Source: a bacterium
GTDB taxonomy: Bacteria > Bacteroidota > Ignavibacteria > Kapaibacteriales > UBA7675
Assembly (NCBI GenBank): GCA_030430495.1
Contig: JAUIKM010000046.1
Location: forward strand, 1 to 34,561
Direction of reading: 5' to 3'
Length of the DNA: 34,561 bases
A program made the translations under genes and the position numbers. This document shows, one piece after another, positions 9,868 through 28,174 of the stretch. Under the pieces are notes generated by a model that did not search any database, had not been told where the DNA came from, and worked only from the letters and a program-made list of their open reading frames with translations. Position 1 is the stretch's first letter; each line of letters starts with the position of its first letter.

Positions 9868-10668
9868 TCAGGACTCGCCGGAGATGGGCGAAAAACGTTC
9901 GCGCAGGCGTTGATACAGGCGCATTTCCGGCTCGACCATCTCGCGCATGCGATCGATGGCCGACGTGTCGACGTCTTCCTCGATTCGCGATGTGCGCGTG
10001 CGGTTCGGCTCCAGCGTAAAGCCCGTTTTGGCCGAGAGCTGCGCCAGACCGTTGTCAAAATCCTCGGTAAACATCACGTGCTCACAGGAACAAATGCGTT
10101 CGTAAGCCTCATCGACATCAAACTCTTTGGAAAACATAAAAAGCTGGTTGAGGAGGGCGTCCCGCGGAATTTTGTCGAGGAAGTCGTTCATCGAATTGCC
10201 CAGCCAGGCCAACTCCGGCACGATGTTCGGACGCATCGGCCCTTCCTGGCGCGAAAAGTTAACCAGAATTTTGTAGTGCGAAAACGCGCGCTTAAACGGA
10301 TCGCGAATAATCGTAAAACGGAAGGTTTCGCGCGGCAGCTCCAGTTCCCAGTAGGGAATGTGCGAAAATGCAAAGGTGTACAGACCGCCTTCGATGAGGT
10401 ATTTGCGCCAGCCCACATAAACGTATTTGTCGCTGATTGCGCGGTGTTGCGGCTGCTGCACCAGACGCCGGTACACATTCTTCGACTCTTCGCCGCCGGC
10501 CGCCAGAAAAGCCTGGATGATGCTGGACCCGGCCGTCTTGCGGATGTGGTAAAAGTAGATGCGGCGGTAGTTATCCCCGTAATGCGCATCTTTGAGCAGA
10601 TTGCGGCATTCGCGTGTCTGACTGATCGAACGCGACCGCAGCCAAAGATCGTACAATTGTCGTTTCAT
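9868..10668 (-). CDS. Sulfotransferase family protein (PAPS-dependent)
   Basis: A 266-residue P-loop sulfotransferase, expected to move sulfate from PAPS to a sugar hydroxyl. The 5'-phosphosulfate loop is RKTAGSS (residues 43-49, after IYFYHI) and the 3'-phosphate motif is IIRDPFKRAFSHY (120-132, with R122 and S130). The RKTAGSS form resembles the Sulfotransfer_2/carbohydrate group. The ATG at 10668 was chosen: an upstream extension to 10785 adds 39 residues without homology-like character, while a G-rich segment precedes 10668. It is divergent from the sulfotransferase gene at 10798, with 129 bases between them. No PAPS synthesis genes are in the window. Confidence 0.85.
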   Translation of the reverse strand: MKRQLYDLWLRSRSISQTRECRNLLKDAHYGDNYRRIYFYHIRKTAGSSIIQAFLAAGGEESKNVYRRLVQQPQHRAISDKYVYVGWRKYLIEGGLYTFAFSHIPYWELELPRETFRFTIIRDPFKRAFSHYKILVNFSRQEGPMRPNIVPELAWLGNSMNDFLDKIPRDALLNQLFMFSKEFDVDEAYERICSCEHVMFTEDFDNGLAQLSAKTGFTLEPNRTRTSRIEEDVDTSAIDRMREMVEPEMRLYQRLRERFSPISGES

Positions 10669-10797
10669 TGAGCCGCCCCCGGTTCCCTTCACGCGTTCTT
10701 CCCGATTTCGCCGGGCCAAAATCGACCGGACGAACGTCGCATTTTTTCGTAATTTGAACTCCCAGCAAACATTCCGGCACGCCAAAAATAGTATAAA

Positions 10798-11829
10798 ATG
10801 GACTTAGAATCCTCCCGCTCTCCCGATTTCTTCCTGTTCGGCTGCGAACGCAGCGGCAGCACCCTGCTGGCGAACCTGCTCTCGTCCCACCCCAACATCT
10901 ACACCGTCAATGACAGTTTTGTCTATCAGATCTTCGCCAAATCATATCTGGAGCAGTCCTCCGACGGAGCGGACCGCCTGCGACGCCGCTTTGTGCGCTA
11001 CTTCCGCAACACGCTGGCCAACCGCAGCACCTGGCTGTACAACCTGGCCATGAACACACGCGCCAAACTGCGCCACAGCAATCCTGCGGCCTACATTCCC
11101 CCGACGGACGACCTGCCCGGACCGGACTTTGCCGTCGAAACATTGCTCTGCACGAACTACATCAAAAATTTGCTGGCGCACTATCTGCAGCCGCTGCCGG
11201 GTCAGAAGGAACCGACCTGGCTGGCCGAGTACGCCGAGCGCTTTGACCGCGACGGCATTCTGCGGACCTGCGCCGAGGGCGGTTGGAACACACGCCCGCT
11301 GCTCGACGCCTGTTTTGCGCAATGCATTCCGCAGGAGCACCGCGGCGACTCGATTGTCGGCGAAAAAACGCCGGCGCACATCTACTACTCTTCCTGGATT
11401 CGCCACCTCTACCCGCAGGACAAATTCATCGTTCTGATGCGCAGTCCACTCTCCAATATCGCGGCGATCTACAAACGCGCCGGCAAAAACCTGAGCGCGG
11501 CCATCGACCTGTACAAGAGCACATATCATCCGCAGTTTTACTTTCTCTACGACGGCTCTTCTTCACTGCCGGTTCGCTACGAGCAGCTGATCAACCATCC
11601 GCAGGCGGCGATGGAGCGCATCTACCGCTATCTGGGCGTTGAGCCGGCGGAGGCCGACGGCGACGTTCCGCGCCCGACGGCGGACTATATCAAGCAGACC
11701 TACGTCGGCGCGGACATCGACCCGGCGCGCGACCGCAAACTGCGCAAGCTGCTTTCGACGGAAGAGCAAAACACGATCCGCCGCGAGTGCCGCGAGATCA
11801 TGGAACGCTTTTTCCCCGAGGATCTGTAG
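10798..11829 (+). CDS. Sulfotransferase family protein (PAPS-dependent)
   Basis: A 343-residue P-loop sulfotransferase, the only plus-strand gene inside the glycan locus. FFLFGCERSGSTLLANLL (residues 11-28) carries the RSGST phosphosulfate loop. GEKTPAHIYY (188-197) is the conserved acceptor-side segment seen in the Sulfotransfer_3 type, and FIVLMRSPLSNIAAIYK (210-226) is the 3'-phosphate motif with R215 and S219. It is unlike the neighbouring sulfotransferase at 9868 outside these motifs. The 5' flank is AT-rich with no good ribosome binding site. Sulfation of a surface glycan is inferred from context; sulfation of a lipid or small molecule is the alternative. Confidence 0.87.
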   Translation: MDLESSRSPDFFLFGCERSGSTLLANLLSSHPNIYTVNDSFVYQIFAKSYLEQSSDGADRLRRRFVRYFRNTLANRSTWLYNLAMNTRAKLRHSNPAAYIPPTDDLPGPDFAVETLLCTNYIKNLLAHYLQPLPGQKEPTWLAEYAERFDRDGILRTCAEGGWNTRPLLDACFAQCIPQEHRGDSIVGEKTPAHIYYSSWIRHLYPQDKFIVLMRSPLSNIAAIYKRAGKNLSAAIDLYKSTYHPQFYFLYDGSSSLPVRYEQLINHPQAAMERIYRYLGVEPAEADGDVPRPTADYIKQTYVGADIDPARDRKLRKLLSTEEQNTIRRECREIMERFFPEDL

Positions 11830-12844: not shown

Positions 12845-14419
12845 TCAGACCCAGCGTTCAGCAAGCAGTCCGTCAACCGTGCGCTCCACCAGAGCGTAGT
12901 CCGCCACGATGTACTGGCGGTCCTGTGCCGGTGGCGCCTCTTCCGCATTGATCGCGTCCAGAATTCCCTCGGCGCTTTCCGTGTACACAAATGCGCCGTT
13001 CTCACAGAACTCGCGCATTAACGTGCGGCCGTTCGGGTGAATAATCACCGGGCGGGCGCCAAAAGCCAGCGCCTCGTACGCCACCGTGGACCACAACGTG
13101 ATGCACACCTTGACGTGGCGCAGCATGCCGTAGAGCGGCATAGAGCCCGCGCGCTCCACCTCGCAGCGCGCGGCCAGATCGCCCAGGCGCTCCACTAACT
13201 CCGGAAGGCGCCTGCGCATGCGCGGATGCGGACGCAGGAACCATTTGACCTTGTCCGGCGACTGTTTAATCGCGCTTAACAAATGATCCGGCAGCGGCTG
13301 GTCGACAGGTTGCAGCGCGACCATGACGTTAACATCGGCATTAAACACGTCGCGGAAGGCGGGCTCGCGCGCCTCGTCCGTTTCAAAATTGCGGTCGCGC
13401 CAGAGCGCCAGCCATGAACTGCCGCCCATGAGAACCTGGTGCCGCGTCGTGCCGCCGCACCAGGCGTCCAGGCGCGCTTTACTCGGCTCGCCCCACATCC
13501 AGAAATGCGTGGGTATCAGTTCATAACCTTCGCGTGGAACGCGCGCCCAGTGTGTGTACATCAAATGGTGATCGCCCTGCTGGCCGTGCTGCAATTCCAC
13601 CGTGTTGACTCCGGCGTCGTTGCAGGCCAGGATTGCGGCAAAGGAAATCTCGTCGTAAAAACAGGTAAAAAACAACGCGCGCGGACGGTACTCGCGCAAA
13701 CAGTCGCTGAAGACTTTTTTGTACGCCAGGATGCGTTCAACCTGGTCGATCACAGCCACGTGCGTGGCGGCAAAAGGAAGCCCGAGTTTGTTTAAAGCGC
13801 GCCGGAAGTCGATCCAGCCCTCAATCTTCGAACTCGCCATGCCGCCGCTCAGCAGCGAGCCCGCGCTGCGGAAGCTCTGTTTAAGCGCCGCCGCCGCCAA
13901 CCTGGAATCGAGGAGTTGCGAAGTGCCGTAGCGCGGCGTCAGGTAGTTGGCGTCGTCCGAATACTCCAGCATCAGCGCGCTGCGCCCGGACTCATTGTTA
14001 AACGGCAGGCTGTTGAAAAAGGGATTAAACAACTTGCCGTCGACGCGGTCGCGCCGCTGGTTGTTCTTGGCGAGGAACAACGCGTCCACGGGGCCGTGCA
14101 TATGCGCTATGCCGCCCGGGTCCTGCTGTTCCACGCGTTCGACCATGCCGCGCCGACGCAGGTACTCGCCCCAGCGGAAAAACACTCCGGGCAGCGGCAT
14201 CAGGTTGTTGGCCGCCGGGTAACGACGTTGAAGCCTCTTGGCAAAACCCACGAGTTTGCCGTATGAGCGCGGCGGCACGACCTCCTGCCACAAAGCGCGC
14301 GTCAGCATTAGTCGCAGCAACGGCCAGATGCGAATCGATTTATACCGCAGCGCGGTCACATCGAATTCGCGCTCCAGCTCGTTCAGGCGCGTCAGGATGG
14401 TTTTATGATGTTCGCTCAT
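12845..14419 (-). CDS. GT-B-like capsule/surface polysaccharide transferase (family not certain)
   Basis: A 524-residue protein resembling the large GT-B-like surface-carbohydrate proteins related to capsule and polysialic-type transferases. Supporting segments are VELQHGQQGDHH near residue 285, RPHPRM near 400, and LWSTVAYEALAFGARPVI near 450, the donor-binding end of such folds. No membrane segment or signal peptide is seen. It is the last gene of the large minus run and overlaps the upstream fusion gene by 17 bases, so both are one transcript. Given the adjacent CMP-sugar module, transfer of the nonulosonate-like sugar is a reasonable but unproven role. A CDP-glycerol-type transferase is an alternative. 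Confidence 0.6.
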   Translation of the reverse strand: MSEHHKTILTRLNELEREFDVTALRYKSIRIWPLLRLMLTRALWQEVVPPRSYGKLVGFAKRLQRRYPAANNLMPLPGVFFRWGEYLRRRGMVERVEQQDPGGIAHMHGPVDALFLAKNNQRRDRVDGKLFNPFFNSLPFNNESGRSALMLEYSDDANYLTPRYGTSQLLDSRLAAAALKQSFRSAGSLLSGGMASSKIEGWIDFRRALNKLGLPFAATHVAVIDQVERILAYKKVFSDCLREYRPRALFFTCFYDEISFAAILACNDAGVNTVELQHGQQGDHHLMYTHWARVPREGYELIPTHFWMWGEPSKARLDAWCGGTTRHQVLMGGSSWLALWRDRNFETDEAREPAFRDVFNADVNVMVALQPVDQPLPDHLLSAIKQSPDKVKWFLRPHPRMRRRLPELVERLGDLAARCEVERAGSMPLYGMLRHVKVCITLWSTVAYEALAFGARPVIIHPNGRTLMREFCENGAFVYTESAEGILDAINAEEAPPAQDRQYIVADYALVERTVDGLLAERWV

Positions 14420-15821
14420 GCTGTAGCGCGGCCGCGACGGCGTCGATTTTGTTCAGATCGATATCCTTGTGCGTAGGCAGGGAAAGTCCGCGTTCCGAAA
14501 TATAGCGGCTCACCTCGGCCGAGCGGCTGTACTCCTTGTACACCGGCATGTCGCTGAGCGAGTAGAACGAGGGACGCGCGTCGATGCCGGCGTTTTTGAG
14601 CCGTTCGATCACGTCCGCACGGTTGTTGCCCGTCACCAGCGCGCTGACGAGCCAGACCACTTTCTCGCGATGTTCCAGATCGCCGCGCTGAAACTCAAAC
14701 AGGCCCGTGTCGGCCAGGGCGCGCTGGTAGGCGCTTTCGATATCGCGGCGTTGCTGAATAATCGATTCGATGCGCTCCAGCTGGGCGCAGCCGATCGCCG
14801 CCTGCAGGTTTGTCATGCGGTAGTTGTAGCCGACTTCGTCGTGCCAGTAGCGCTTTTGTTTGTTCATACCGTGGTCGCGCAGCACGCGCATGCGGTCGTC
14901 CAGCTCCGGCGAGTTTGTCACGCACATGCCGCCTTCGCCCGTGGTGATTACCTTGTTGCCGAAAAAGGAAAAACAGCCAATGTGCCCGATCGAGCCGACG
15001 CGTTTGCCGCGGTAGCGCGCTCCGTGCGCCTCGGCGGCGTCCTCCACCACGTAGAGATTGTGTTCTTCCGCCAGCGCCATGATTGCGTCCATGTTGGCCG
15101 GCTGGCCGTAGATGTGGACCGGCATGATGGCTTTGGTGCGCGGCGAAATGTGCTTGCGCACTTCGTCCGGATCGATGCACCAGGACTCTCGCTCCACGTC
15201 GACAATCACCGGCGTCGCGCCGGCGTGCAGCACCGCGTTGACGGAGGCCGCAAAGGTAAAGTCCGGCACGATCACTTCGTCGCCCGGGCCGATGCGCAGC
15301 GCCGCCAGCGCCAGGTGCAGCGCCACCGTCCCGTTGCTGACCGCCACGCCGTGTTTGCATTCACAGAACTCTGCAAAATCTTCCTCAAATTTCGTCAGGT
15401 ACTTGCCCGAGCTGGAAATCCAGGTCGAGAGCACGGCGTCGGTGACGTAGCGCAGCTCGTTGCCGCCCAGGTCCGGCATCGCCACCGGAATGTGCACGCG
15501 GTGGTCGTAGCGGAAATAGTCCACCACCACGCCATCGTCGTTCACCAGCGGAATGACGCGGATCTTGCGGTTGGTTTTGGCCATCAGCTCGTTGATGTCC
15601 TCGCCCACCTTGCCGTACACGTAGTCGCCGAGCGGCATGTCGCGCAGCATATCGTCCAGCGAGCCGCCGTCCAGCAGTTGACGTCGGACGTCGCCGTCCG
15701 TCAGCACGCCGCAGAGCTTGCCGTTTTCGTCGTTGACGAAGGCTATCCCGACCGGTTGGGCATTGATTGCCGCCAGCGCCTGACGCAGGGAATTGTTCAG
15801 GGTTGTAATGGAATCTTGCAC
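14403..15821 (-). CDS. CBS-domain pair fused to DegT/DnrJ/EryC1 aminotransferase
   Basis: A 472-residue two-part protein. Residues ~1-105 form a CBS-domain pair (VNDENGKLCGVLTDGDVRR near 29-47, then VIPLVNDDGVVVDYF), of the type normally joined to a sugar nucleotidyltransferase in legionaminic-acid clusters. Residues ~110-472 are a PLP-dependent sugar aminotransferase starting VHIPVAMPDLGGNEL, with VSNGTVALHLAL and the PLP lysine K290 in SFFGNKVITTGEGG. It should aminate a keto-sugar, perhaps under nucleotide control through the CBS part. It starts with GTG at 15821, overlapping the preceding stop as TAGTG with GGAGG just upstream, so the fusion start is secure and is not a misread junction. 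Substrate unknown. Confidence 0.88.
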   Translation of the reverse strand: MQDSITTLNNSLRQALAAINAQPVGIAFVNDENGKLCGVLTDGDVRRQLLDGGSLDDMLRDMPLGDYVYGKVGEDINELMAKTNRKIRVIPLVNDDGVVVDYFRYDHRVHIPVAMPDLGGNELRYVTDAVLSTWISSSGKYLTKFEEDFAEFCECKHGVAVSNGTVALHLALAALRIGPGDEVIVPDFTFAASVNAVLHAGATPVIVDVERESWCIDPDEVRKHISPRTKAIMPVHIYGQPANMDAIMALAEEHNLYVVEDAAEAHGARYRGKRVGSIGHIGCFSFFGNKVITTGEGGMCVTNSPELDDRMRVLRDHGMNKQKRYWHDEVGYNYRMTNLQAAIGCAQLERIESIIQQRRDIESAYQRALADTGLFEFQRGDLEHREKVVWLVSALVTGNNRADVIERLKNAGIDARPSFYSLSDMPVYKEYSRSAEVSRYISERGLSLPTHKDIDLNKIDAVAAALQHERTS

Positions 15822-16675
15822 TAATCCTCCAGCAGCGTGGCCAGAACATCATGAGAATGCCGCACCGTTTGCAGGTCGCGGTAGATTTCCAGGGTAAATA
15901 TTTTGCCGCCCAGGTCGGCGCGCTCCAGCAGGCGGTACAGGTCGGAATCGCGTTCCAGCGGACCGTTGCTGTCCACCCTGCCGTCGTTGTCGCTGATGTG
16001 CACGTAGTCGGATTGCGGCAGCAGGAATTGCACTTCTTTCGCCAGATCCAGCCCCAGCGTCGCGCAGCTCACCTTCAGATGCGCCAGGTCCAGCAGCAGA
16101 TTAAAGTCCGCTTCGGCCCGCAGTTCTTCGAATCCGGACCGATCGGCTAAAAAGAAGGGATTTACTCCGCCGTAACTGGCCGCGTTCGGGGCCGAAAAGA
16201 CGTTGTTCTCAATGTAGAGTTCCACGTCCTCCGTTTCCGCATACACTTCCCCGACCGCCTGACAAAACCTTTTAAATCCCTCTTGTTTGTCAAAGAGGGA
16301 CATGCGATCAATCTTTTTGCCAATCTGGTGCAGCGGAATGTCGATCAAAAAGCCGGCGTGGAAGCCGTAGCGCCGCGCACCCAGCAGTTTTGACAGTTCG
16401 ACGGCGCGCCGCACCTGCGCGCGGCTGGCTTTAAACGTCTCGTCATCCAGCGAAGCCAGGTTCAGCACAAAGTGTTTAAGCGGCGGCGGAAAATAATTGT
16501 GGCACAGATATTCGAGTTGAAAGCGCTGTTTAAGGTCGAGCAGATCCTCCGGCAGCGCGTCGTACCACTCCGTCCCGCCGGACAGCTCGATATGGCGGAA
16601 ACCCGCCTCGGCCAGTTGCCTGACGGCATCGCGGATAGTGGCCGCGCGTACGCAGGAAGAGGAGATGTAGATCAT
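15821..16675 (-). CDS. Sugar phosphate isomerase/epimerase-like TIM barrel
   Basis: A 284-residue TIM-barrel protein of the xylose-isomerase-like/AP-endonuclease-2 family. Metal-binding-type residues appear in FHAGF, in YIENNVF (Glu) and in LLLDLAHLKVS and DYVHISDNDG (Asp/His). Members isomerise or epimerise sugars and inositols with a divalent metal. The start chosen is ATG at 16675, which overlaps the stop of the preceding gene as ATGA with GGAGG upstream; a longer frame to 16768 adds Arg-rich filler. It sits between the NeuD-like gene and the CBS/aminotransferase fusion, so it could replace the missing 2-epimerase step, but this is inference. Bases 16268-16291 contain a copy of the dispersed 24-bp word seen around tyrS. 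Confidence 0.8.
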   Translation of the reverse strand: MIYISSSCVRAATIRDAVRQLAEAGFRHIELSGGTEWYDALPEDLLDLKQRFQLEYLCHNYFPPPLKHFVLNLASLDDETFKASRAQVRRAVELSKLLGARRYGFHAGFLIDIPLHQIGKKIDRMSLFDKQEGFKRFCQAVGEVYAETEDVELYIENNVFSAPNAASYGGVNPFFLADRSGFEELRAEADFNLLLDLAHLKVSCATLGLDLAKEVQFLLPQSDYVHISDNDGRVDSNGPLERDSDLYRLLERADLGGKIFTLEIYRDLQTVRHSHDVLATLLED

Positions 16676-17283
16676 GAGCGCCTCCGCGCCGGCATGCCAG
16701 TGTAAACACCGGCTTCCGTGATATTGCGACTTACCACGGCCCCTGAACCGATGACCGCGTCGTCGCACACTTTAACGCCCGGATTGACAACTGCACCCGC
16801 GCCGACCAGAACGCGAGCGCCGATCTGCGTGCGACCGCAGAGCACCGCCCCAACCGCAACATGACTGTGCGCGCCAACCTGCGACTCGTGCTCGACAATG
16901 CTGCCGGAGTTGATGATACAATTGTCGCCTATTTCAACTTCACAGTTAACAAATGCCCGTGCAAAAACCTGCACGCCCGAGCCCAGCCGTACAAAGTTCT
17001 CAACCGTCGCATGCGGATGAATCAGAGGCCGTTCCAGCATTTGCGCCCGAAAACGATCAAAAAGCTGCTGCCGCCTGCGATTGTCGCCTACGGCCAGTGC
17101 AATGTCCGCATCCGCGGGAATATCGTCAGGTACACCCTGCACGGAAATGTTCTGGATAACTTCGTTTCCGTCGGCGTCCCAGGAATCATCGTAGATTCCA
17201 CGCGCGTCCAGGCCGCAGTGTCGCAGCAGTCCCAGCAGAGAACGCGCATGTCCGCCGGCGCCTATGACAACACATTCATTCAT
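16672..17283 (-). CDS. neuD: NeuD/PglD-type sugar O/N-acetyltransferase
   Basis: A 203-residue acetyltransferase of the NeuD/PglD/HpfF family. The N-terminal Rossmann-like part begins VVIGAGGHARSLLGLL. The C-terminal half is a left-handed beta-helix of hexapeptide repeats (about residues 95-190), with the likely catalytic histidine in IVEHES (H132). NeuD enzymes acetylate sialic-acid-type sugars, PglD a UDP-4-amino sugar; the adjacent neuB-like genes favour the first, while the aminotransferase leaves the second open. It overlaps both neighbours with ATGA junctions, so it is translationally coupled. Confidence 0.88.
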   Translation of the reverse strand: MNECVVIGAGGHARSLLGLLRHCGLDARGIYDDSWDADGNEVIQNISVQGVPDDIPADADIALAVGDNRRRQQLFDRFRAQMLERPLIHPHATVENFVRLGSGVQVFARAFVNCEVEIGDNCIINSGSIVEHESQVGAHSHVAVGAVLCGRTQIGARVLVGAGAVVNPGVKVCDDAVIGSGAVVSRNITEAGVYTGMPARRRS

Positions 17284-18329
17284 TGCAATTCGATTATTTC
17301 GTCGCGGGAAAAATCGCGTGGCGCTGCACGCCCGATTACTTCCCGGAAAAACAGAGGCGAGATTCCGCGGCCGCCCGTCCTTTTGGCGATCAGATCATCG
17401 GCCCGAAACGTTGCGCCTTTGCTGATCGGCCGCGTTGCAACGAGGCACTTTTGCAGAGAAGCGCGCGTACCCAACTCCGAGATTGTCGGTTTTTTGACGT
17501 GCGTCCCGAGATACTGCTCTATCGTCCGCACCTGGCGCACAAAGGCCTTGAGCTCTTGCGGATCAAGCGATGCGCGGTGATCCGGCCCTTCGGAATCTTT
17601 GTTTAAAGTAAAGTGTTTTTCGACAACGCAAGCGCCCATCGGCACTGCGTAGGGAGCCGCCCCGATACCGACGGAATGATCCGAATAACCAACCAGAATA
17701 TTAAAGTGCCGTTTAAACGTCTCGATGACGTTGAGGTTGGCCTCACTGTCCAGAATCGGGTAATTGGCCGTGCACTGCAACAGCACGACGTCTCTGTTGT
17801 ATTTCGATATTTCTTTCAACGCCATTTCAACTTCGCTCAAATAGCTCATGCCGGTCGAAAGAAAAATCGGCTTGCCTCTTTGGGCCAGTTTAATAAGAAA
17901 GGGCAGATTAGTCGTATCCGTAGATGCCACTTTGTAGGCATCCAGATCCAGCGCGTCAAGTTCATCCAGACTGACTTCGTCAAAAGGTGTAATCAGGAAT
18001 GTCAGGCCGGCGGTATCGCAGTGCTGTTTAAGTTCGCGGTACTGATCCTGAGCCAGTTCCAGCTTGCGCAGCATATCCGCCTGCGATTCCGCTTTGTCGG
18101 TCGTTTGCTGCTGATACCCCGCCTTGGCAACATCCTCCAGGATCAAATGCGCAGTGCGGAAAGCCTGAAACTTGACTGCGTCGGCGCCGGCTTCCGCCGC
18201 ACAATCGATCAGTCGTTTGGCCAGCTCCATGTCGCCGCCGTGGTTAACCCCCGCCTCGGCAATGATGTACACCGGATCACCGGCAGATATCGAGCGCAAT
18301 CCAAGTGGTATTCTGTGAGAAAACTGCAT
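17280..18329 (-). CDS. neuB: NeuB-family nonulosonic acid synthase (canonical copy)
   Basis: Condenses phosphoenolpyruvate with an N-acyl-mannosamine-type sugar to a nine-carbon keto acid. The 349-residue protein from ATG 18329 has the complete NeuB motif set: IIAEAGVNHGGD with E25, AVKFQAF with K53, AYKVAST, GYSDHSVG and VEKHFTL metal ligands, then a C-terminal antifreeze-like (SAF) domain from about residue 290. Start chosen where family homology begins; the frame is open to 18407 but those 26 residues look unrelated. Whether the substrate gives sialic, legionaminic or another acid cannot be told. It follows a second, divergent NeuB paralogue, separated by 77 bases. Confidence 0.93.
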   Translation of the reverse strand: MQFSHRIPLGLRSISAGDPVYIIAEAGVNHGGDMELAKRLIDCAAEAGADAVKFQAFRTAHLILEDVAKAGYQQQTTDKAESQADMLRKLELAQDQYRELKQHCDTAGLTFLITPFDEVSLDELDALDLDAYKVASTDTTNLPFLIKLAQRGKPIFLSTGMSYLSEVEMALKEISKYNRDVVLLQCTANYPILDSEANLNVIETFKRHFNILVGYSDHSVGIGAAPYAVPMGACVVEKHFTLNKDSEGPDHRASLDPQELKAFVRQVRTIEQYLGTHVKKPTISELGTRASLQKCLVATRPISKGATFRADDLIAKRTGGRGISPLFFREVIGRAAPRDFSRDEIIELQ

Positions 18330-18406
18330 GCGAGTTCCGTAAGTGACTGTTAATTGATCCCGACTACAATGCATTGGACTGAATGCGCGCCGCAGGCGCA
18401 CATGCA

Positions 18407-19453
18407 TCAGTCCTGCACGTCGCTCGTTGCGAGGTTGTCAAACTGTTTAATACTGCGCACGAGGGTTTTGCCTTCCAGTTCTGCAAAAGCACGCGGAGAG
18501 AGTCCGTTAACATCATTGCGGATAAAAAGGACGTCGTCGCGCTTGAGTACCGCACCGGCTTTCAGTTCACGCGCCGCCACGATGCTTTTTTTCTGGAAGG
18601 TCCGATAGCGCAAATCGCTCTCGTCGAAGGGCTTGACGCTTTTGTCGCCCAGCGCGGCGGCGCCGGTGTGCATGCGTTGCACGTAGGCGCTGAACTCTTC
18701 AGGCTGCAGGGCCGCCTGAAAGTCGGTCTTTGTCGTAGCACGATCCATGCAGATATGTTTCTCCAGAATCCCGGCGCCGACGCCCATGGCGAGCAGATCG
18801 GTCTGACCGGCGAATTCGAGTTCCGCATCGGTGTGATCCGCATACCCCACCGGCAGTCCGAACACGTCGCGCAGTAAATTCAGCTTGTTTATGTGCAGAT
18901 TGGCAATCACCGTCGGAAAGTTCTGCACACCGTACATCAGAACCACGTTCTTTGCCCCCTCTTCGGCAACTTCGCGCAGCGCGGCGGCGATCTCTTCCAT
19001 CGTCGAAGCGCCCGTTCCCAGCGTAAAAGGCACGCCCAGGTTAGCCGTGCCCTTCACCACGTCCGGGTTGGACAGGTCGGCAGAGTTAAGTTTAATCCCG
19101 TCGACGCCCAGTTGGCGCGCCAGGTCCACGCTGGGCGCATCATAGACACAGGCCCATACGTCTATCTCCCGCGCGCGCGCGTGATCGTAGAGTTGTTTCC
19201 ACTGTTCGTCGCTGAATTCGATTTCTTTCAGTAGACCGTGGACCGGATGACGCGGCGTGACCACATGGTCGGACCGAAAAAATTGCAGTTGCACGGCATC
19301 CGCTTTTGCGTCCGCCGCCGCATCGATTATCGCGCGCGCCTTGTCGAAATCGCCGTCGTGCGCACATGCCATTTCGGCAATGATATAGGGCCGCAAATAG
19401 GGCGCAATTTTCACAGCGCCGTTCACTTCAATGACCTGATTAAACACGTGCAT
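18407..19453 (-). CDS. NeuB-family synthase, divergent paralogue
   Basis: A 348-residue protein with the NeuB layout: TIM-barrel synthase part, then an SAF-like C-terminal domain (VAARELKAGAVLKRDDVLFIR). Several key positions differ from canonical NeuB: IIAEMACAHDGD replaces the usual E-x-G-x-N-H-x-G, and AVQLQFF has Q55 where the substrate-binding lysine of KFQ is expected. The two metal-type histidines are kept (GYADHTD, LEKHICM). It may use another sugar or partner with the canonical copy. ATG 19453 was chosen because AGGAG lies eight bases upstream. The gene lies between the DapA-like and canonical neuB genes on the same strand. Confidence 0.85.
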   Translation of the reverse strand: MHVFNQVIEVNGAVKIAPYLRPYIIAEMACAHDGDFDKARAIIDAAADAKADAVQLQFFRSDHVVTPRHPVHGLLKEIEFSDEQWKQLYDHARAREIDVWACVYDAPSVDLARQLGVDGIKLNSADLSNPDVVKGTANLGVPFTLGTGASTMEEIAAALREVAEEGAKNVVLMYGVQNFPTVIANLHINKLNLLRDVFGLPVGYADHTDAELEFAGQTDLLAMGVGAGILEKHICMDRATTKTDFQAALQPEEFSAYVQRMHTGAAALGDKSVKPFDESDLRYRTFQKKSIVAARELKAGAVLKRDDVLFIRNDVNGLSPRAFAELEGKTLVRSIKQFDNLATSDVQD

Positions 19454-19479: not shown

Positions 19480-20412
19480 TTACAACCAACCATTGTTTTG
19501 CATGACCGTTTTTAATTGCTCGCGCTGCTCAGGCAGAATGCGGCGCAGCGGCGGACGTTCGTAAGGCGGCATCAGGCCTTTCAGGTGCAACGCCTCCTTG
19601 AGTGAAATGTGCCATCCCATTGGGACAACTGCGCCGAAGTACGGCAATTCAGTATTGTACACAATTTCGTGTGCACCGCCGTAGTCGCCGGATATCATTT
19701 TGTTAAAGAAGTCCAGTTCAATCTCCGGCTGGAAGTTTCCGATTCCGCCCAGGAATGCGCGAGCGCCATTCCAGTGATCGCGCAGATAGCGGCTCATGCC
19801 TCCTCCCGCGCCGACAATCAATGCCCTCTCCGATGTAGCTTTAACGACCTGGTTGCCGTAGTTGATGTCCAGGCTCTCTTCTTTCATTCCGATAACATTG
19901 GGAATGTCGAGCAATCGCTGCAACAGAGGAATTGAATACTGCACCTGACCGCCGCCCTGTCCGTTGCGCATCGGCATTTCGTGCAGCATGATTGCAATGT
20001 CAACCGCCGAAGCAATTGCGTGAATAAATTCGTACAGTGTGTCGTCGCCGTAGTGACGCTCGGGATGATACACGAGCAGAATGTCCGCACCGTTCTCTTT
20101 GGCGTGCTGCGCAAACTGAATACACTGTCGGGTCGACCCTGTCATCGGCGTAGACACAATAGTTTTGGCCTTTCCGGCCGCAGCTTCGATGACGGTTTTG
20201 TTAATCTGCAGCATCTCTTCCGTTGTCAGCAGATTAAAGCGGCTGGTGCCCACAGTAGACATTACAGTCTGAATCCCGTTGTCCGCCAGAAAACGCACAT
20301 ATGTCGCCAGCGCGTTGTAATCGACGTCGAAGTCTGAATTAAAAGGCGTCGGCAGCGGGATCACAGGCCCGGTCACGGCCTGGCGCAAATCATCGTATTT
20401 AGTCTCACTCAT
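19480..20412 (-). CDS. DapA/NanA-family class I aldolase, divergent active site
   Basis: A 310-residue TIM-barrel protein of the dihydrodipicolinate synthase / N-acetylneuraminate lyase family, which makes or splits keto acids through a lysine Schiff base with pyruvate. The lysine is present (VIGMKEES, K177). The tyrosine motif YNxP is replaced by HEMP (H144), and the GTTGE loop is GTSRF (55-59). So proton shuttling and keto-acid carboxylate binding are probably altered and a new substrate is likely. Its ATG overlaps the stop of the CMP-sugar synthetase gene (ATGA). An aldolase inside a synthesis cluster that already has two NeuB enzymes is unusual. Confidence 0.83.
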   Translation of the reverse strand: MSETKYDDLRQAVTGPVIPLPTPFNSDFDVDYNALATYVRFLADNGIQTVMSTVGTSRFNLLTTEEMLQINKTVIEAAAGKAKTIVSTPMTGSTRQCIQFAQHAKENGADILLVYHPERHYGDDTLYEFIHAIASAVDIAIMLHEMPMRNGQGGGQVQYSIPLLQRLLDIPNVIGMKEESLDINYGNQVVKATSERALIVGAGGGMSRYLRDHWNGARAFLGGIGNFQPEIELDFFNKMISGDYGGAHEIVYNTELPYFGAVVPMGWHISLKEALHLKGLMPPYERPPLRRILPEQREQLKTVMQNNGWL

Positions 20413-21125
20413 TTGGATTGTTCCTGGTTTAGTAGTTGCGCCATCATTCCTTCGGCAATTTGGAACTGGTAGGGATAGTCGATGTCAAACGAACGTTCGG
20501 GCGGCATGACGTACGCCAGCATTTTTTCCTGGAAGAACGTCGAGCGCTCGAGAAACTTCGCCACATCGCCGATGTAAATCGAACCATTGGGATGCAGCAA
20601 CGTGCGAATATCCTGACTGCGGGTTGTCATTCCGTATGCGCCGGGGTCAACCATCGTCACATGCGGATCGTCGCCGGAGCCCGGCTCCATCGCGAGTTGC
20701 GGCGGAAAATCGTATTCAACAACTCCGAGCAGAAACGGTTCATCCGGATGTTCATTAAACAACTGCACCGCACTGCGAATATCGTGCGCGGTACGAAACG
20801 GACAGGTTGGCAGCAGGGCGGCGACGTTCTGATACGTGCCGCTGTTTTCCGGCCGTTGCAGAAACTCCTCTACAACCTCGACCATCCGTACTCTGTCGCC
20901 GCACAGATGCTCGGGCCGATGGTCCACCTCAATGCCTTCCGACTTTGCCAGCTCCGCTATCTCGGCATCTTCGGTCGAAACAACGATTCTGTCAAACACA
21001 TCGGCTTCGCGCGCAGAACGGAGGGAATACGCCAGAAGGGGAACGCCCGCCAGGGGGAGCACATTCTTGCGCGGAATCCTCTTTGAACCGCCGCGAGCGG
21101 GAATAATACAGACTGTTGAATTCAT
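20409..21125 (-). CDS. neuA: CMP-nonulosonic acid cytidylyltransferase (NeuA/PseF type)
   Basis: Activates a nine-carbon (or Kdo-like) keto acid with CTP to its CMP-sugar. The 238-residue protein opens with CIIPARGGSKRIPRKNV, the CTP-binding loop of this family (R11, K15, K20), followed by LLPTCPFR, NGSIYI and FDIDYPYQFQIAE, all typical of the PseF/NeuA branch. Single-domain length, with no C-terminal hydrolase extension. The ATG at 21125 is preferred to 21140 because the motif then begins at the usual distance. It is first in the nonulosonate-like block and coupled to the DapA-like gene. The specific acid is not determined. Confidence 0.9.
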   Translation of the reverse strand: MNSTVCIIPARGGSKRIPRKNVLPLAGVPLLAYSLRSAREADVFDRIVVSTEDAEIAELAKSEGIEVDHRPEHLCGDRVRMVEVVEEFLQRPENSGTYQNVAALLPTCPFRTAHDIRSAVQLFNEHPDEPFLLGVVEYDFPPQLAMEPGSGDDPHVTMVDPGAYGMTTRSQDIRTLLHPNGSIYIGDVAKFLERSTFFQEKMLAYVMPPERSFDIDYPYQFQIAEGMMAQLLNQEQSK

Positions 21126-21196
21126 AACTTGAACCTTCAATGTTCGCGGGAGCTCCCAGGAATGACGGCCACGCTGAAAAGCGGAAACTCATGTCG

Positions 21197-22162
21197 TCAT
21201 TTGCTGTCGGCCTGTCCTTCACGAATGTATCCATAACGCTCAAGGCCAAGCCCCGCCAGATTGTTCAGTTGAGCATTTGATTCCGAATAGTACTCACTGA
21301 ATTCAGCCAGCAGTTCATCAAGTTCAGGGCCGTTAAACGCTCGAACTTCACTCTTCTCATTCCTGGAGCGTTTCCCCTGCGGCGGTCGCGTCATGAATCG
21401 CTCTATTTCCGCCGCGCCGGGATTTAACCCCAGAAAGTTAAAATAGCGCTGAAACTCCTGCGCACCGTCTTCAAACAGTCGCTCAAAGACCAGCACAAAT
21501 ACTCTGTCCGCACCAAATCGCTCGGCGTACATGTTGTAGACGCGCAGGAAGTTGTAGTGCTCCAGAAAGATCGCCTTGCCGCCGCGCTGTTCACACAGGC
21601 AGCGGATGCGGCCGTGCTGACAGGCCGGATAGTTGCAGAACAGCGAGCCCTCGCGGTCCAGCACGTCCGCCAGTTTGTACTGCCAGCGTTTAATGTGGAA
21701 GTCGTGTGTGTAACGCGACAGAATCAGCTCGGGCTGACGACGGATCGAAATCACGATCTTCACGTCCAGGCCATCGGCCAGATCCTGAATGCGGTCCGCT
21801 ACCATCTCTTCCAGATAGGGCTTGCACAAACCTTCATGCGAGATCACATTCAACTTGTCGGCCTGCACGACCGCATCAAGTGTTGTTCGGATTTCGTCGC
21901 GATTGTATTCACCGTCGGCCGCATAACCAATTTCCTGTATCCACTGACTGTGCGGCGTCGGCGATTTAATAAGCTTCGTGACCGGCGCGGGTTTCCACGG
22001 CAAACGATGCAACACGCGGTTAAACAACTTTTCGAACCGGCTCTTTTTGTAGTAAGAGCGGCCGAGGTAGTTGACGCCGTCGAGTTCCGGATACACGCCG
22101 CGTTGCAGCCAGGATGTAGCTGTTTTAGGGTATCCGATATGAAAAACGATGCGTTGTTGCAT
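21197..22162 (-). CDS. Sulfotransferase family protein
   Basis: A 321-residue P-loop sulfotransferase. The phosphosulfate loop is FHIGYPKTATSWLQ (residues 7-20), the form typical of carbohydrate sulfotransferases, and the 3'-phosphate motif is VISIRRQPELILSRY (137-151; R141/R142, S149). Between them lie four closely spaced cysteines (CNYPACQHGRIRCLC), perhaps a metal-binding insert, which is uncommon in the family. It is on the same strand as the CMP-sugar module, 71 bases upstream of it. Sulfation of the surface glycan is inferred. Confidence 0.82.
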   Translation of the reverse strand: MQQRIVFHIGYPKTATSWLQRGVYPELDGVNYLGRSYYKKSRFEKLFNRVLHRLPWKPAPVTKLIKSPTPHSQWIQEIGYAADGEYNRDEIRTTLDAVVQADKLNVISHEGLCKPYLEEMVADRIQDLADGLDVKIVISIRRQPELILSRYTHDFHIKRWQYKLADVLDREGSLFCNYPACQHGRIRCLCEQRGGKAIFLEHYNFLRVYNMYAERFGADRVFVLVFERLFEDGAQEFQRYFNFLGLNPGAAEIERFMTRPPQGKRSRNEKSEVRAFNGPELDELLAEFSEYYSESNAQLNNLAGLGLERYGYIREGQADSK

Positions 22163-22209: not shown

Positions 22210-23019
22210 TTAAACAGATTGTTCGTTCCAGATGCGTTTGGCCGGCACCTTGCCTGAGAAACGCGCGGGGTTCAGAGGCGATTCGTGCCACCACTGCTGC
22301 GTAAACGGCTTGGGTTTATACACCGGCATCGGGTCGGTGTGGCTGTGGCCGCGCATCACCATGCGCTCGCGGCCCGGCCGCACAACGCCGCCGCGATGGT
22401 AACCATCGGTATCAAAAATAATCATTGTACCGGCCGGACCTTCAATCGGTATCGCCTGGTCAATCATTTTCTGCTCCGTCGTGCGGTTGTCGATTGTCTC
22501 CATCCGCCCGCCGTAACGCAAATGTTCATTGGCCAGTTTGCGACCAATCAAATGCGATCTGGGAATAAACTGGAATGCCCCGCTCTCTTCTGTCGTGTCG
22601 AGCAGATAGAGAAAAAACTTCAGCGAGAGAATCTTGTCAAAGTGCAATGGATTAATCGGTTCGGGATTCGGCTTGTCGTGCGTAATATAGATGTCGTTGT
22701 TAACAAGATTCGGCTTGCCGAGGTATTGGTCGGTCAGCAACTTCATCATGTCGTCGTCAAAGGTACGTGCAAATACCGGAAACTTGCTCGTATCAATTCC
22801 TTCGCGGTGGACCGACAGCGCGCGGCCGTGCTCGTAGTTTATAGTCCTTATCCAGCCGACGGACTGCTTGAACAATTCTTCAAATTCTTCGCGCAGGGCG
22901 GCGATATCCTCGGCAGGGATAAAATTGGGAATGTGAACCATGCCGTGCTCGCGCAGAACTGCCAGCGTTTTATCGATGCCCGCATCGCGCGACAGTGTAA
23001 ATTCATATTCAGTTCGCAT
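22210..23019 (-). CDS. Phytanoyl-CoA dioxygenase (PhyH) family Fe(II)/2-oxoglutarate oxygenase
   Basis: A 269-residue double-stranded beta-helix oxygenase. The iron triad is visible as HFD (H126, D128) and the distal histidine in DTDGYHRGG (H208), followed by RPGRERM with the arginine that should bind 2-oxoglutarate. PhyH relatives hydroxylate or epimerise small molecules and secondary metabolites; here a sugar or sugar-lipid is likely from context, but the substrate is unknown. GGAG lies seven bases before the ATG at 23019. It stands between a sulfotransferase and a glycosyltransferase in the large minus run. Confidence 0.83.
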   Translation of the reverse strand: MRTEYEFTLSRDAGIDKTLAVLREHGMVHIPNFIPAEDIAALREEFEELFKQSVGWIRTINYEHGRALSVHREGIDTSKFPVFARTFDDDMMKLLTDQYLGKPNLVNNDIYITHDKPNPEPINPLHFDKILSLKFFLYLLDTTEESGAFQFIPRSHLIGRKLANEHLRYGGRMETIDNRTTEQKMIDQAIPIEGPAGTMIIFDTDGYHRGGVVRPGRERMVMRGHSHTDPMPVYKPKPFTQQWWHESPLNPARFSGKVPAKRIWNEQSV

Positions 23020-26822: not shown

Positions 26823-27353
26823 TTAATGTGCAAAGTCCGGATAGGCTTTGTCCTTGTCGGACATGACCGGCGCATCCGTCGGCCAGTCTATGCCGATGGA
26901 CGGATCGTTCCAGCGAATGCCGCGCTCGCGACCCGGAGCGTAAAAGTTGGACACCTGATAAAAGATGTCGCAGTTGTCGCGCAGGGTAATAAAACCGTGT
27001 GCAAATCCGGGCGGCACGTAGAGCATGCGCATATTGTCTTCGGTCAGCTCCACCTGCACGTATTGTTTAAACGTCGACGAGTCAGGGCGAACATCGACGA
27101 TTGTGTCGAGGATGGCGCCCTGTGTACACCGCACCAGCTTGGCCTCTTCAGCGCCGTCCACCTGGTAGTGCATGCCCCGCAGAGTGTGTTTAAGCGCCGA
27201 ACGCGAAAGGTTGCTCTGCACCATGTGCGTGGCCAGCCCGTGAGCGGCAAATTCATTGGCGCAGTACATGCGCGCAAAAAAGCCGCGGTGATCGCCGTGA
27301 GGCTCGGGTTCGATCACGAACGCACCGCGCAGTTTGGTCTCGCTGAACTTCAT
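26823..27353 (-). CDS. rfbC: dTDP-4-dehydrorhamnose 3,5-epimerase family protein (RfbC/RmlC-like)
   Basis: A 176-residue cupin epimerase that inverts C3 and/or C5 of a 4-keto-6-deoxyhexose nucleotide. Family motifs are FVIEPEPHGDHRGFF, LRGMHYQ with catalytic H62, VDVRPDSSTF, YVPPGFAHGF, and the Tyr pair around 132-138. There is no rmlA, rmlB or rmlD in the window, and the partners are the CDP-glucose genes, so the substrate is probably CDP- rather than dTDP-linked; the symbol denotes family only. GGAG precedes the ATG, which overlaps the sulfotransferase stop (ATGA). Confidence 0.88.
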   Translation of the reverse strand: MKFSETKLRGAFVIEPEPHGDHRGFFARMYCANEFAAHGLATHMVQSNLSRSALKHTLRGMHYQVDGAEEAKLVRCTQGAILDTIVDVRPDSSTFKQYVQVELTEDNMRMLYVPPGFAHGFITLRDNCDIFYQVSNFYAPGRERGIRWNDPSIGIDWPTDAPVMSDKDKAYPDFAH

Positions 27354-28174
27354 CGGGTTTGCTCCTTCATTTCCTGCGGCGCCAGTCCCATCAGGCTGAA
27401 ATCCACCCAGGGATAAAATCGCGTCATCGCCCGTACGCGGTCGCGCTGTGCATCCGTTAACAAAGCCGTGCCGCGACCGGACACGCCTTTGTTGAAGCGC
27501 GAGGCCTTGCGTTTTTCTTCGGCTTCCGCCAGAATGTTTTCAACTTTTGCCTCGTTGACAGGCAAAGAATAAAAAGTAAGTATGCGTCTTATTGCGGCGG
27601 CTTTGTCGGCCATCACTTCTTCGTAGCTGGTCCACAGCAGGTCGATCGCTTGCGTGCGCCGCGCTTCAAACCACGAAACGTAAAAGTTAAAGTACCAGGG
27701 CAATGCCATGTCGATGATCATGTCGTACTGGTCCGATTCCGCCAGTTCGTAGAATCGATCGTCGACAAACAACATCGGCGAGTTCTGCCCCTGTTTGTAA
27801 AAATGATCGCGCAGCGAAATCACGATGTCGAAAATATTGCGCGTCAGAACGACCGGCCGGATGTTAAACTCGTTTAACATCTTCAGGTTCGGCTGCGTGG
27901 CGCGCACGTGCTGCTGCGTCACCGAGTTCTTGCGCGCCGCATCGGCGGCCGTGGGCAGGTACATGTCCTGCTCGTTGCGCTTGCGACGGAATGTCATGCT
28001 CTCGACCTCAAAACCCGTCACCGCATGCAGGGTTTTGTACAGAAAGGTCGATCCGCTTTTGGGAAAACAGGCGATAAAAATATTGGTCGTCGAGGTCGAA
28101 CGACCGCGTGCGAGTCGCTGCCAGACGGCCAGAGTGGCTCGCGCGGGATGCCGCAGGTTGTCGCCGAGTCCCAT
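27350..28174 (-). CDS. Sulfotransferase family protein (Sulfotransfer_1-like)
   Basis: A 274-residue P-loop sulfotransferase. FIACFPKSGSTFLYKTL (33-49) holds the classic PKSGST phosphosulfate loop and VVLTRNIFDIVISLRDHF (108-125) the 3'-phosphate motif with R112 and S120. KGVSGRG near residue 236 resembles the KG-x-x-G-x-W PAPS-binding end of eukaryote-like cytosolic sulfotransferases, with a different last residue. The ATG overlaps the rfbG stop (TGATG) with GGAGG upstream. A sulfotransferase embedded between rfbG and an epimerase gene is unusual and ties sulfation to this sugar pathway. Confidence 0.85.
   Translation of the reverse strand: MGLGDNLRHPARATLAVWQRLARGRSTSTTNIFIACFPKSGSTFLYKTLHAVTGFEVESMTFRRKRNEQDMYLPTAADAARKNSVTQQHVRATQPNLKMLNEFNIRPVVLTRNIFDIVISLRDHFYKQGQNSPMLFVDDRFYELAESDQYDMIIDMALPWYFNFYVSWFEARRTQAIDLLWTSYEEVMADKAAAIRRILTFYSLPVNEAKVENILAEAEEKRKASRFNKGVSGRGTALLTDAQRDRVRAMTRFYPWVDFSLMGLAPQEMKEQTR

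Follow-up and report, generated by a model that had tools for sequence, protein, structure and literature searches.

On balance, we favour the reading that NeuB2, a divergent NeuB-family protein encoded in the window (the whole 34,561-nucleotide stretch of bacterial DNA analysed here), is an active metal-dependent synthase with a changed donor or acceptor, acting in a pathway, so far undescribed, that leads to a ulosonic acid activated with CMP. The protein probably catalyses a different step in the making of a rare surface sugar, in a reaction that we infer from its pocket and its genomic company. Its reading frame starts with the ATG at 19453 (Table 1), and the plus strand of the same interval is broken by stops. 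Matches to Pfam NeuB (PF03102; E 3e-45, 154.9 bits against a cut-off of 22.1) and SAF (E 4e-6, 27.8 bits against a cut-off of 21) bear out the synthase-plus-SAF layout that a first-pass annotation had assigned to this copy. The best structural matches to its AlphaFold model (pLDDT 95.4) were 6ncs (Z 36.5) and meningococcal NeuB (NmNeuB, PDB 1xuu and 2wqp; Z 36.1 for 2wqp), and the two domains and the fold together place NeuB2 in the NeuB structural family. Its scores against the equivalog models for N-acetylneuraminate synthase (TIGR03569; 199.4 bits, cut-off 399.65) and pseudaminic acid synthase (TIGR03586; 168.3 bits, cut-off 340.25) fell below threshold.

NeuB2 is thus a NeuB-family member by fold, and by signature it is outside the NeuB, PseI and SpsE functional groups. 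PseI (TIGR03586, PDB 8h2c) shares the fold and metal site at 24–25% identity over the model but, unlike NeuB2, keeps N29, K53, S154, C182, Y186 and S213 (NmNeuB numbering). Bacillus subtilis SpsE (PDB 1vli) likewise differs from NeuB2 in keeping N29, K53, S154 and S213, and it groups with PseI outside the NeuB2 clade in our tree. DAHP and KDO-8-P synthases belong to the same barrel superfamily (Z 24–28) but, unlike NeuB2, have no SAF domain, and are only 11–20% identical to it.

Two motifs, E27-M-A-C-A31-H32-D-G and D52-A-V-Q55-L-Q57, confirmed the annotation's reading of A-H-D-G for N-H-x-G and of Gln55 for the lysine of KFQ. Because the alignment to NmNeuB is ungapped across residues 22–57, the missing lysine and asparagine are not supplied from shifted positions nearby; the clade alignment contained no conserved lysine near residue 55. 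The changed positions, with the NmNeuB residue first, are N29–A31, K53–Q55, T110–C102, F112–Y104, E134–D126, S154–G146, C182–G175, N184–Q177, Y186–F179 and S213–A205, and the loop around NmNeuB position 74 is shorter. Kept are E25–E27, Q55–Q57, K129–K121, S132–S124, H215–H207, E234–E231, H236–H233, D247–D244 and R314–R312, together with an equivalent of His30; both metal-type histidines are therefore present, as had been claimed.

Genome searches returned 11 further sequences that share this signature, for a total of 12 homologues including the window copy. In this small sample (eleven or twelve sequences from few contexts, mostly metagenome-assembled genomes), Ala at position 29 and Gln at position 53 occurred in 12/12 members, compared with Asn29 in 66/67 and Lys53 in 67/67 other NeuB-type proteins, so the substitutions are not attributable to chance. 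The PEP-side pocket is replaced clade-wide at NmNeuB positions 29, 53, 110, 112, 131, 134, 154, 182, 184, 186 and 213: A29, Q53, N131, D134, G154, G182, Q184 and F186 are found in all 12 members, C110 and Y112 in 11, and position 213 is Ala or His, with S213 absent from every member. Lys53, Ser213 and Tyr186, each present in 67/67 canonical proteins, are all missing from all 12, and the canonical pocket (K53, S154, Y186, S213 and N29; 66–67 of 67 canonical proteins) is accordingly not found in NeuB2. By contrast with these losses, E25, K129, S132, H215, E234, H236, D247 and R314 are retained in the clade, and the canonical set of metal histidines, Lys129, Glu25 and SAF arginine was present in all members with sequence there.

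In NmNeuB numbering, positions 110, 129, 131, 132, 182 and 184 surround PEP; variation among the Campylobacter jejuni enzymes for Neu, Leg and Pse falls on the sugar side, the surroundings of PEP and sugar C1 being conserved, with the region of the position 74 loop tied to sugar C4–C6 specificity (PMC7371886). Judged from its sequence, NeuB2 has the reverse pattern, in that the side usually best conserved across the family, that of PEP, is replaced. The annotation had gone further and stated that the altered residues contact PEP or the amino-sugar. This was not established, as Table 3 of PMC6795526, which tabulates residues close to ligand in NmNeuB, has Gln55 and not Lys53 or Asn29; on alignment evidence, the invariance of Lys53 and Asn29 in canonical NeuBs shows only that both residues matter. 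The rebuilt pocket is under strong constraint and more conserved than the remainder of the protein, with 11 of 15 published pocket positions invariant in the clade versus 49 of 325 positions elsewhere (Fisher p = 1.7e-6). Such constraint on the new pocket residues is better explained by a role in catalysis, or in binding a ligand tightly, with new specificity than by an idle barrel.

A maximum-likelihood tree of 63 proteins placed the NeuB2 sequences on one side of a branch (support 100/98), yielding the separate, 12-member clade for which the annotation had proposed to look. NeuB2 and two sister groups together (support 100/100) stood apart from NmNeuB, PseI, SpsE and Leptospira NeuB, and both groupings persisted when 14 signature columns were removed (SH-aLRT 99). 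Hosts of NeuB2 include Bacteroidota (Bacteroidia, Flavobacteriales, Cytophagales, Saprospiraceae and a Candidatus Kapaibacterium metagenome-assembled genome placed in the window's family) and two Proteobacteria. The gene is rare, occurring in 4/395 sampled genomes of one class and in 1/395 genomes in a sample of the window's phylum. Searches of plasmids and phages yielded no close relative (best identity 26–33%), and searches of viral contigs yielded none. In one contig, NeuB2 lies in frame behind a long, unrelated, secreted-protein-like open reading frame at the contig end (L029:5191-9693), which is probably a chimeric contig or misassembly.

The two sister groups, found in other genomes, carry partial signatures; the second keeps Lys at position 53, with other positions changed. 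In four sister-group loci (L093, L094, L099 and L100), an SpsF-like cytidylyltransferase adjoins the NeuB2-like gene; one is near it in L098, and L101 has only a weak match. Such neighbours are expected of a ulosonate synthase, and the arrangement resembles the synthase–cytidylyltransferase pairing of SpsE and SpsF in the B. subtilis legionaminic acid pathway (PMC7439481). One or two genes from the NeuB2-like gene of the second sister group, we also observed NeuB barrels of about 230 residues without a SAF domain (L093:7793-8488, L094:7496-8191 and L101:12686-13375), which form a deep branch in the tree. Another NeuB-like protein on a long branch (L052:13518-14606, G002:C57), in the relative G002, has T for N29, D for S154, T for H236 and E for D247.

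The pocket and the sister groups bear on a rival possibility, that of a NeuB-type synthase dependent on PEP in the ordinary way and acting on another sugar acceptor, with pocket changes that only adjust PEP binding. The unchanged fold, metal site, K129, S132 and R314 are consistent with this, as are the shortened position 74 loop, in a region tied to acceptor specificity, and a cytidylyltransferase adjoining or close to the NeuB2-like gene, much as NeuA accompanies canonical NeuB. Retention of Lys53 in the second sister group despite its other changes indicates that the change is graded. However, the PEP side is spared where Neu, Leg and Pse enzymes differ in acceptor (PMC7371886), but in NeuB2 it is replaced at many positions, including three that are universal in canonical proteins, and the neighbouring gene already encodes a canonical NeuB. 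We therefore regard an ordinary PEP-dependent enzyme as unlikely. PEP itself may still bind NeuB2, given that it retains the counterparts of two residues close to PEP in NmNeuB, K129 and S132.

The tightest partner of NeuB2 is a DapA-like gene and not the canonical NeuB; CMP-sugar synthetase and PhyH genes come next. The DapA-like gene was present in 11/11 NeuB2 loci where this could be read, and a PhyH gene was near in every NeuB2 locus with flank. NeuB2 and the DapA-like gene occurred in the same 4 of 395 class-mate genomes, both at more than 500 bits, although one of these four, already known as a carrier of both genes, was the centre of the draw, and joint transfer of the whole cluster inflates the co-occurrence. 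The DapA-like protein matches PF00701 (100.8 bits) and has the Schiff-base lysine of the DHDPS/NAL family: Lys177, equivalent to DHDPS Lys161, is invariant in nine aligned copies, and the arginine pattern that follows it is kept. The position of the catalytic Tyr133 is occupied by His144, with His in all nine copies, and the GTTGE motif is absent, so the DapA-like protein is also an off-type member of its family. Its score against the 4-hydroxy-tetrahydrodipicolinate synthase equivalog (TIGR00674) was 89.3 bits, below the cut-off of 206.15. One cluster (L110, genome G447) encodes a DapA-like protein (33% identical) and a CMP transferase but lacks NeuB2 behind DapA; we rejected a contig end as the cause, as the next open reading frame encodes a polysaccharide protein. 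DapA hence does not need NeuB2, and the G447 cluster suggests that DapA belongs to an older pathway to which NeuB2 was a later addition. A search of the open literature for papers that connect NulO clusters with DapA or PhyH found none.

Gene order was largely preserved among relatives. The series DapA-like, NeuB2, NeuB1, NeuD, AP_endonuc_2 and CBS–LegC is common to the window, L023 and L026, preceded by the PseF-like CMP transferase where the contig extends that far; L091 shares the order of the window, L090 shares it up to AP_endonuc_2, and in L092 an MBOAT pair lies between NeuB2 and NeuB1.

Table 1. Features of the NeuB2 locus, in window coordinates.
Feature	Position	Strand	Basis
Unnamed 524-residue protein, candidate transferase	12845..14419	-	No Pfam or NCBIfam match; locus comparison
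CBS domain fused to LegC-type aminotransferase	14403..15821	-	Pfam, NCBIfam
AP_endonuc_2 TIM-barrel (sugar isomerase/epimerase-like)	15821..16768	-	Pfam, locus comparison
NeuD-type acetyltransferase	16672..17283	-	Pfam, NCBIfam
NeuB1, canonical NeuB paralogue; TIGR03569 399.6 bits (cut-off 399.65)	17280..18407	-	ORF, Pfam, NCBIfam, alignment
NeuB2, divergent NeuB-family synthase barrel plus SAF domain, 348 residues	18407..19453	-	ORF, Pfam, alignment, tree, model
Arg312 codon, kept catalytic SAF arginine (NmNeuB Arg314)	18518..18520	-	Alignment; role of Arg314 from PMC6795526
His207 to His233 stretch, two kept metal-type histidines (NmNeuB His215, His236)	18755..18835	-	Alignment
Gln55 codon, replaces Lys53 (invariant in canonical NeuBs)	19289..19291	-	Alignment
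Ala31 codon, replaces Asn29 of N-H-x-G	19361..19363	-	Alignment
DapA-family (PF00701) Schiff-base aldolase relative, constant NeuB2 partner	19480..20412	-	Pfam, alignment, locus comparison
PseF-like CMP-sugar (ulosonate) cytidylyltransferase	20409..21140	-	Pfam, NCBIfam, locus comparison
PhyH-type Fe/2-oxoglutarate oxygenase, co-conserved	22210..23019	-	Pfam, locus comparison

The annotation had offered two interpretations of NeuB2, use of another substrate or service as a non-catalytic partner of the adjacent canonical copy, and had suggested checking whether its clade is always found beside such a copy. NeuB1 did occur in the same cluster in 9/9 NeuB2 loci with enough flank, usually but not always adjacent, at distances of 5 kb in L028 and 3 kb in L030. 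Apparent cases of NeuB2 without any NeuB1 (L024, L025 and G423) were dropped, as these contigs end right after NeuB2 and MBOAT; L092, in which NeuB1 follows an MBOAT insertion of this kind, supports the explanation. A tree in which the nine NeuB1 proteins form one clade by common descent was not rejected (p-AU 0.16). In G002, NeuB1 is 37% identical to that of the window, compared with 57% for NeuB2, 64% for DapA, 51% for the CMP transferase, 61% for PhyH and 67% for CBS–LegC, which suggests, on these identities, that NeuB1 may have diverged or been swapped while the NeuB2 set was kept.

NeuB has been described as a domain-swapped dimer (PMC6795526), and a regulatory NeuB2 could be imagined whose SAF domain caps NeuB1 in a heterodimer; NeuB2 retains its SAF domain and Arg312, and the constant presence of NeuB1 in flanked loci fits such a role. 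The kept metal and general catalytic residues and the nearly invariant altered pocket are unlike an idle barrel, however, and the tightness of that constraint makes a decayed, non-catalytic partner unlikely. The separations in L028 and L030, the G002 identities and the constancy of DapA also speak against it. We accordingly consider the non-catalytic role quite improbable and retain the other half of the annotation's interpretation, another substrate, which the clade-fixed rebuilding of the PEP side favours. Some interplay between NeuB2 and NeuB1 is likely, as NeuB1 shares the cluster in all nine loci, but the two are not a fixed pair. Sequencing or assembly error is a far-fetched source of the substitutions, as is decay into a pseudogene: although many of the sequences come from draft metagenome-assembled genomes and the L029 fusion is suspect, the same residues recur in intact reading frames and conserved operons in 12 independent genomes of Bacteroidota and Proteobacteria.

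We propose that NeuB2, as an active synthase with changed specificity, would use its metal to activate a carbonyl acceptor, to which an enol donor not bound in the manner of PEP would be added. The carbon–carbon bond would thus join this acceptor to a three-carbon or other enol donor, unlike the canonical pair of PEP and a ManNAc-type sugar. DapA-family enzymes form a pyruvate enamine in all studied relatives known to us, and the DapA-like enzyme could act before or after NeuB2 on the same alpha-keto acid. The PseF-like transferase would then activate the resulting ulosonic acid with CMP, and PhyH may hydroxylate something in the pathway. NeuB1, NeuD, AP_endonuc_2 and CBS–LegC would supply a conventional amino-sugar nonulosonate branch for the same glycan locus. 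More tentatively, the NeuB2 clade might represent the first synthases of the NeuB fold to dispense with PEP, working by metal-dependent aldol-type chemistry in tandem with the class I (Schiff-base) DapA relative towards a CMP-activated, PhyH-oxidized ulosonic acid of a new type, a version that we consider doubtful.

Other features of the locus concern the wider glycan. The CBS domain N-terminal to the LegC-type aminotransferase is an arrangement common to most locus relatives. The 524-residue protein, which contains an H-G-x-x-G-like motif, is kept at the cluster end in L026, L028, L030, L051 and L092, with its N-terminus in L110, and may be the sugar transferase of the cluster. In two relatives, the C-terminus of NeuB1 continues into a fused AP_endonuc_2 TIM-barrel (L030:3955-6243 and L110:2883-4796), with an N-terminal CBS domain as well in L030, and there is no NeuC-type epimerase in the window locus; together, these observations raise the possibility that the barrel prepares the NeuB1 substrate. 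The window also contains four sulfotransferase-like genes (9868-10785, 10798-11829, 21197-22162 and 27350-28174) along with CDP-sugar (RfbF/RfbG) and formyltransferase genes, which suggest that the surface glycan is sulfated and formylated.

Sialic-acid-like sugars are created at the NeuB step, and any protein with PF03102 and SAF is labelled 'N-acetylneuraminate synthase' by annotation pipelines. Members of the NeuB2 clade would be miscalled under this practice, and clusters that contain them would receive the wrong product assignment. To our knowledge, only PEP use has been described in the DAHPS/KDO8PS/NeuB superfamily; with its PEP-side pocket replaced, NeuB2 would put this PEP-only rule to a direct test. 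Nonulosonic acids and sulfation have been reported to be common in environmental bacteria (PMC10483923), and the nine-gene locus, with DapA, the CMP transferase and PhyH as its constant set, suggests that such bacteria make a surface sugar not yet characterised.
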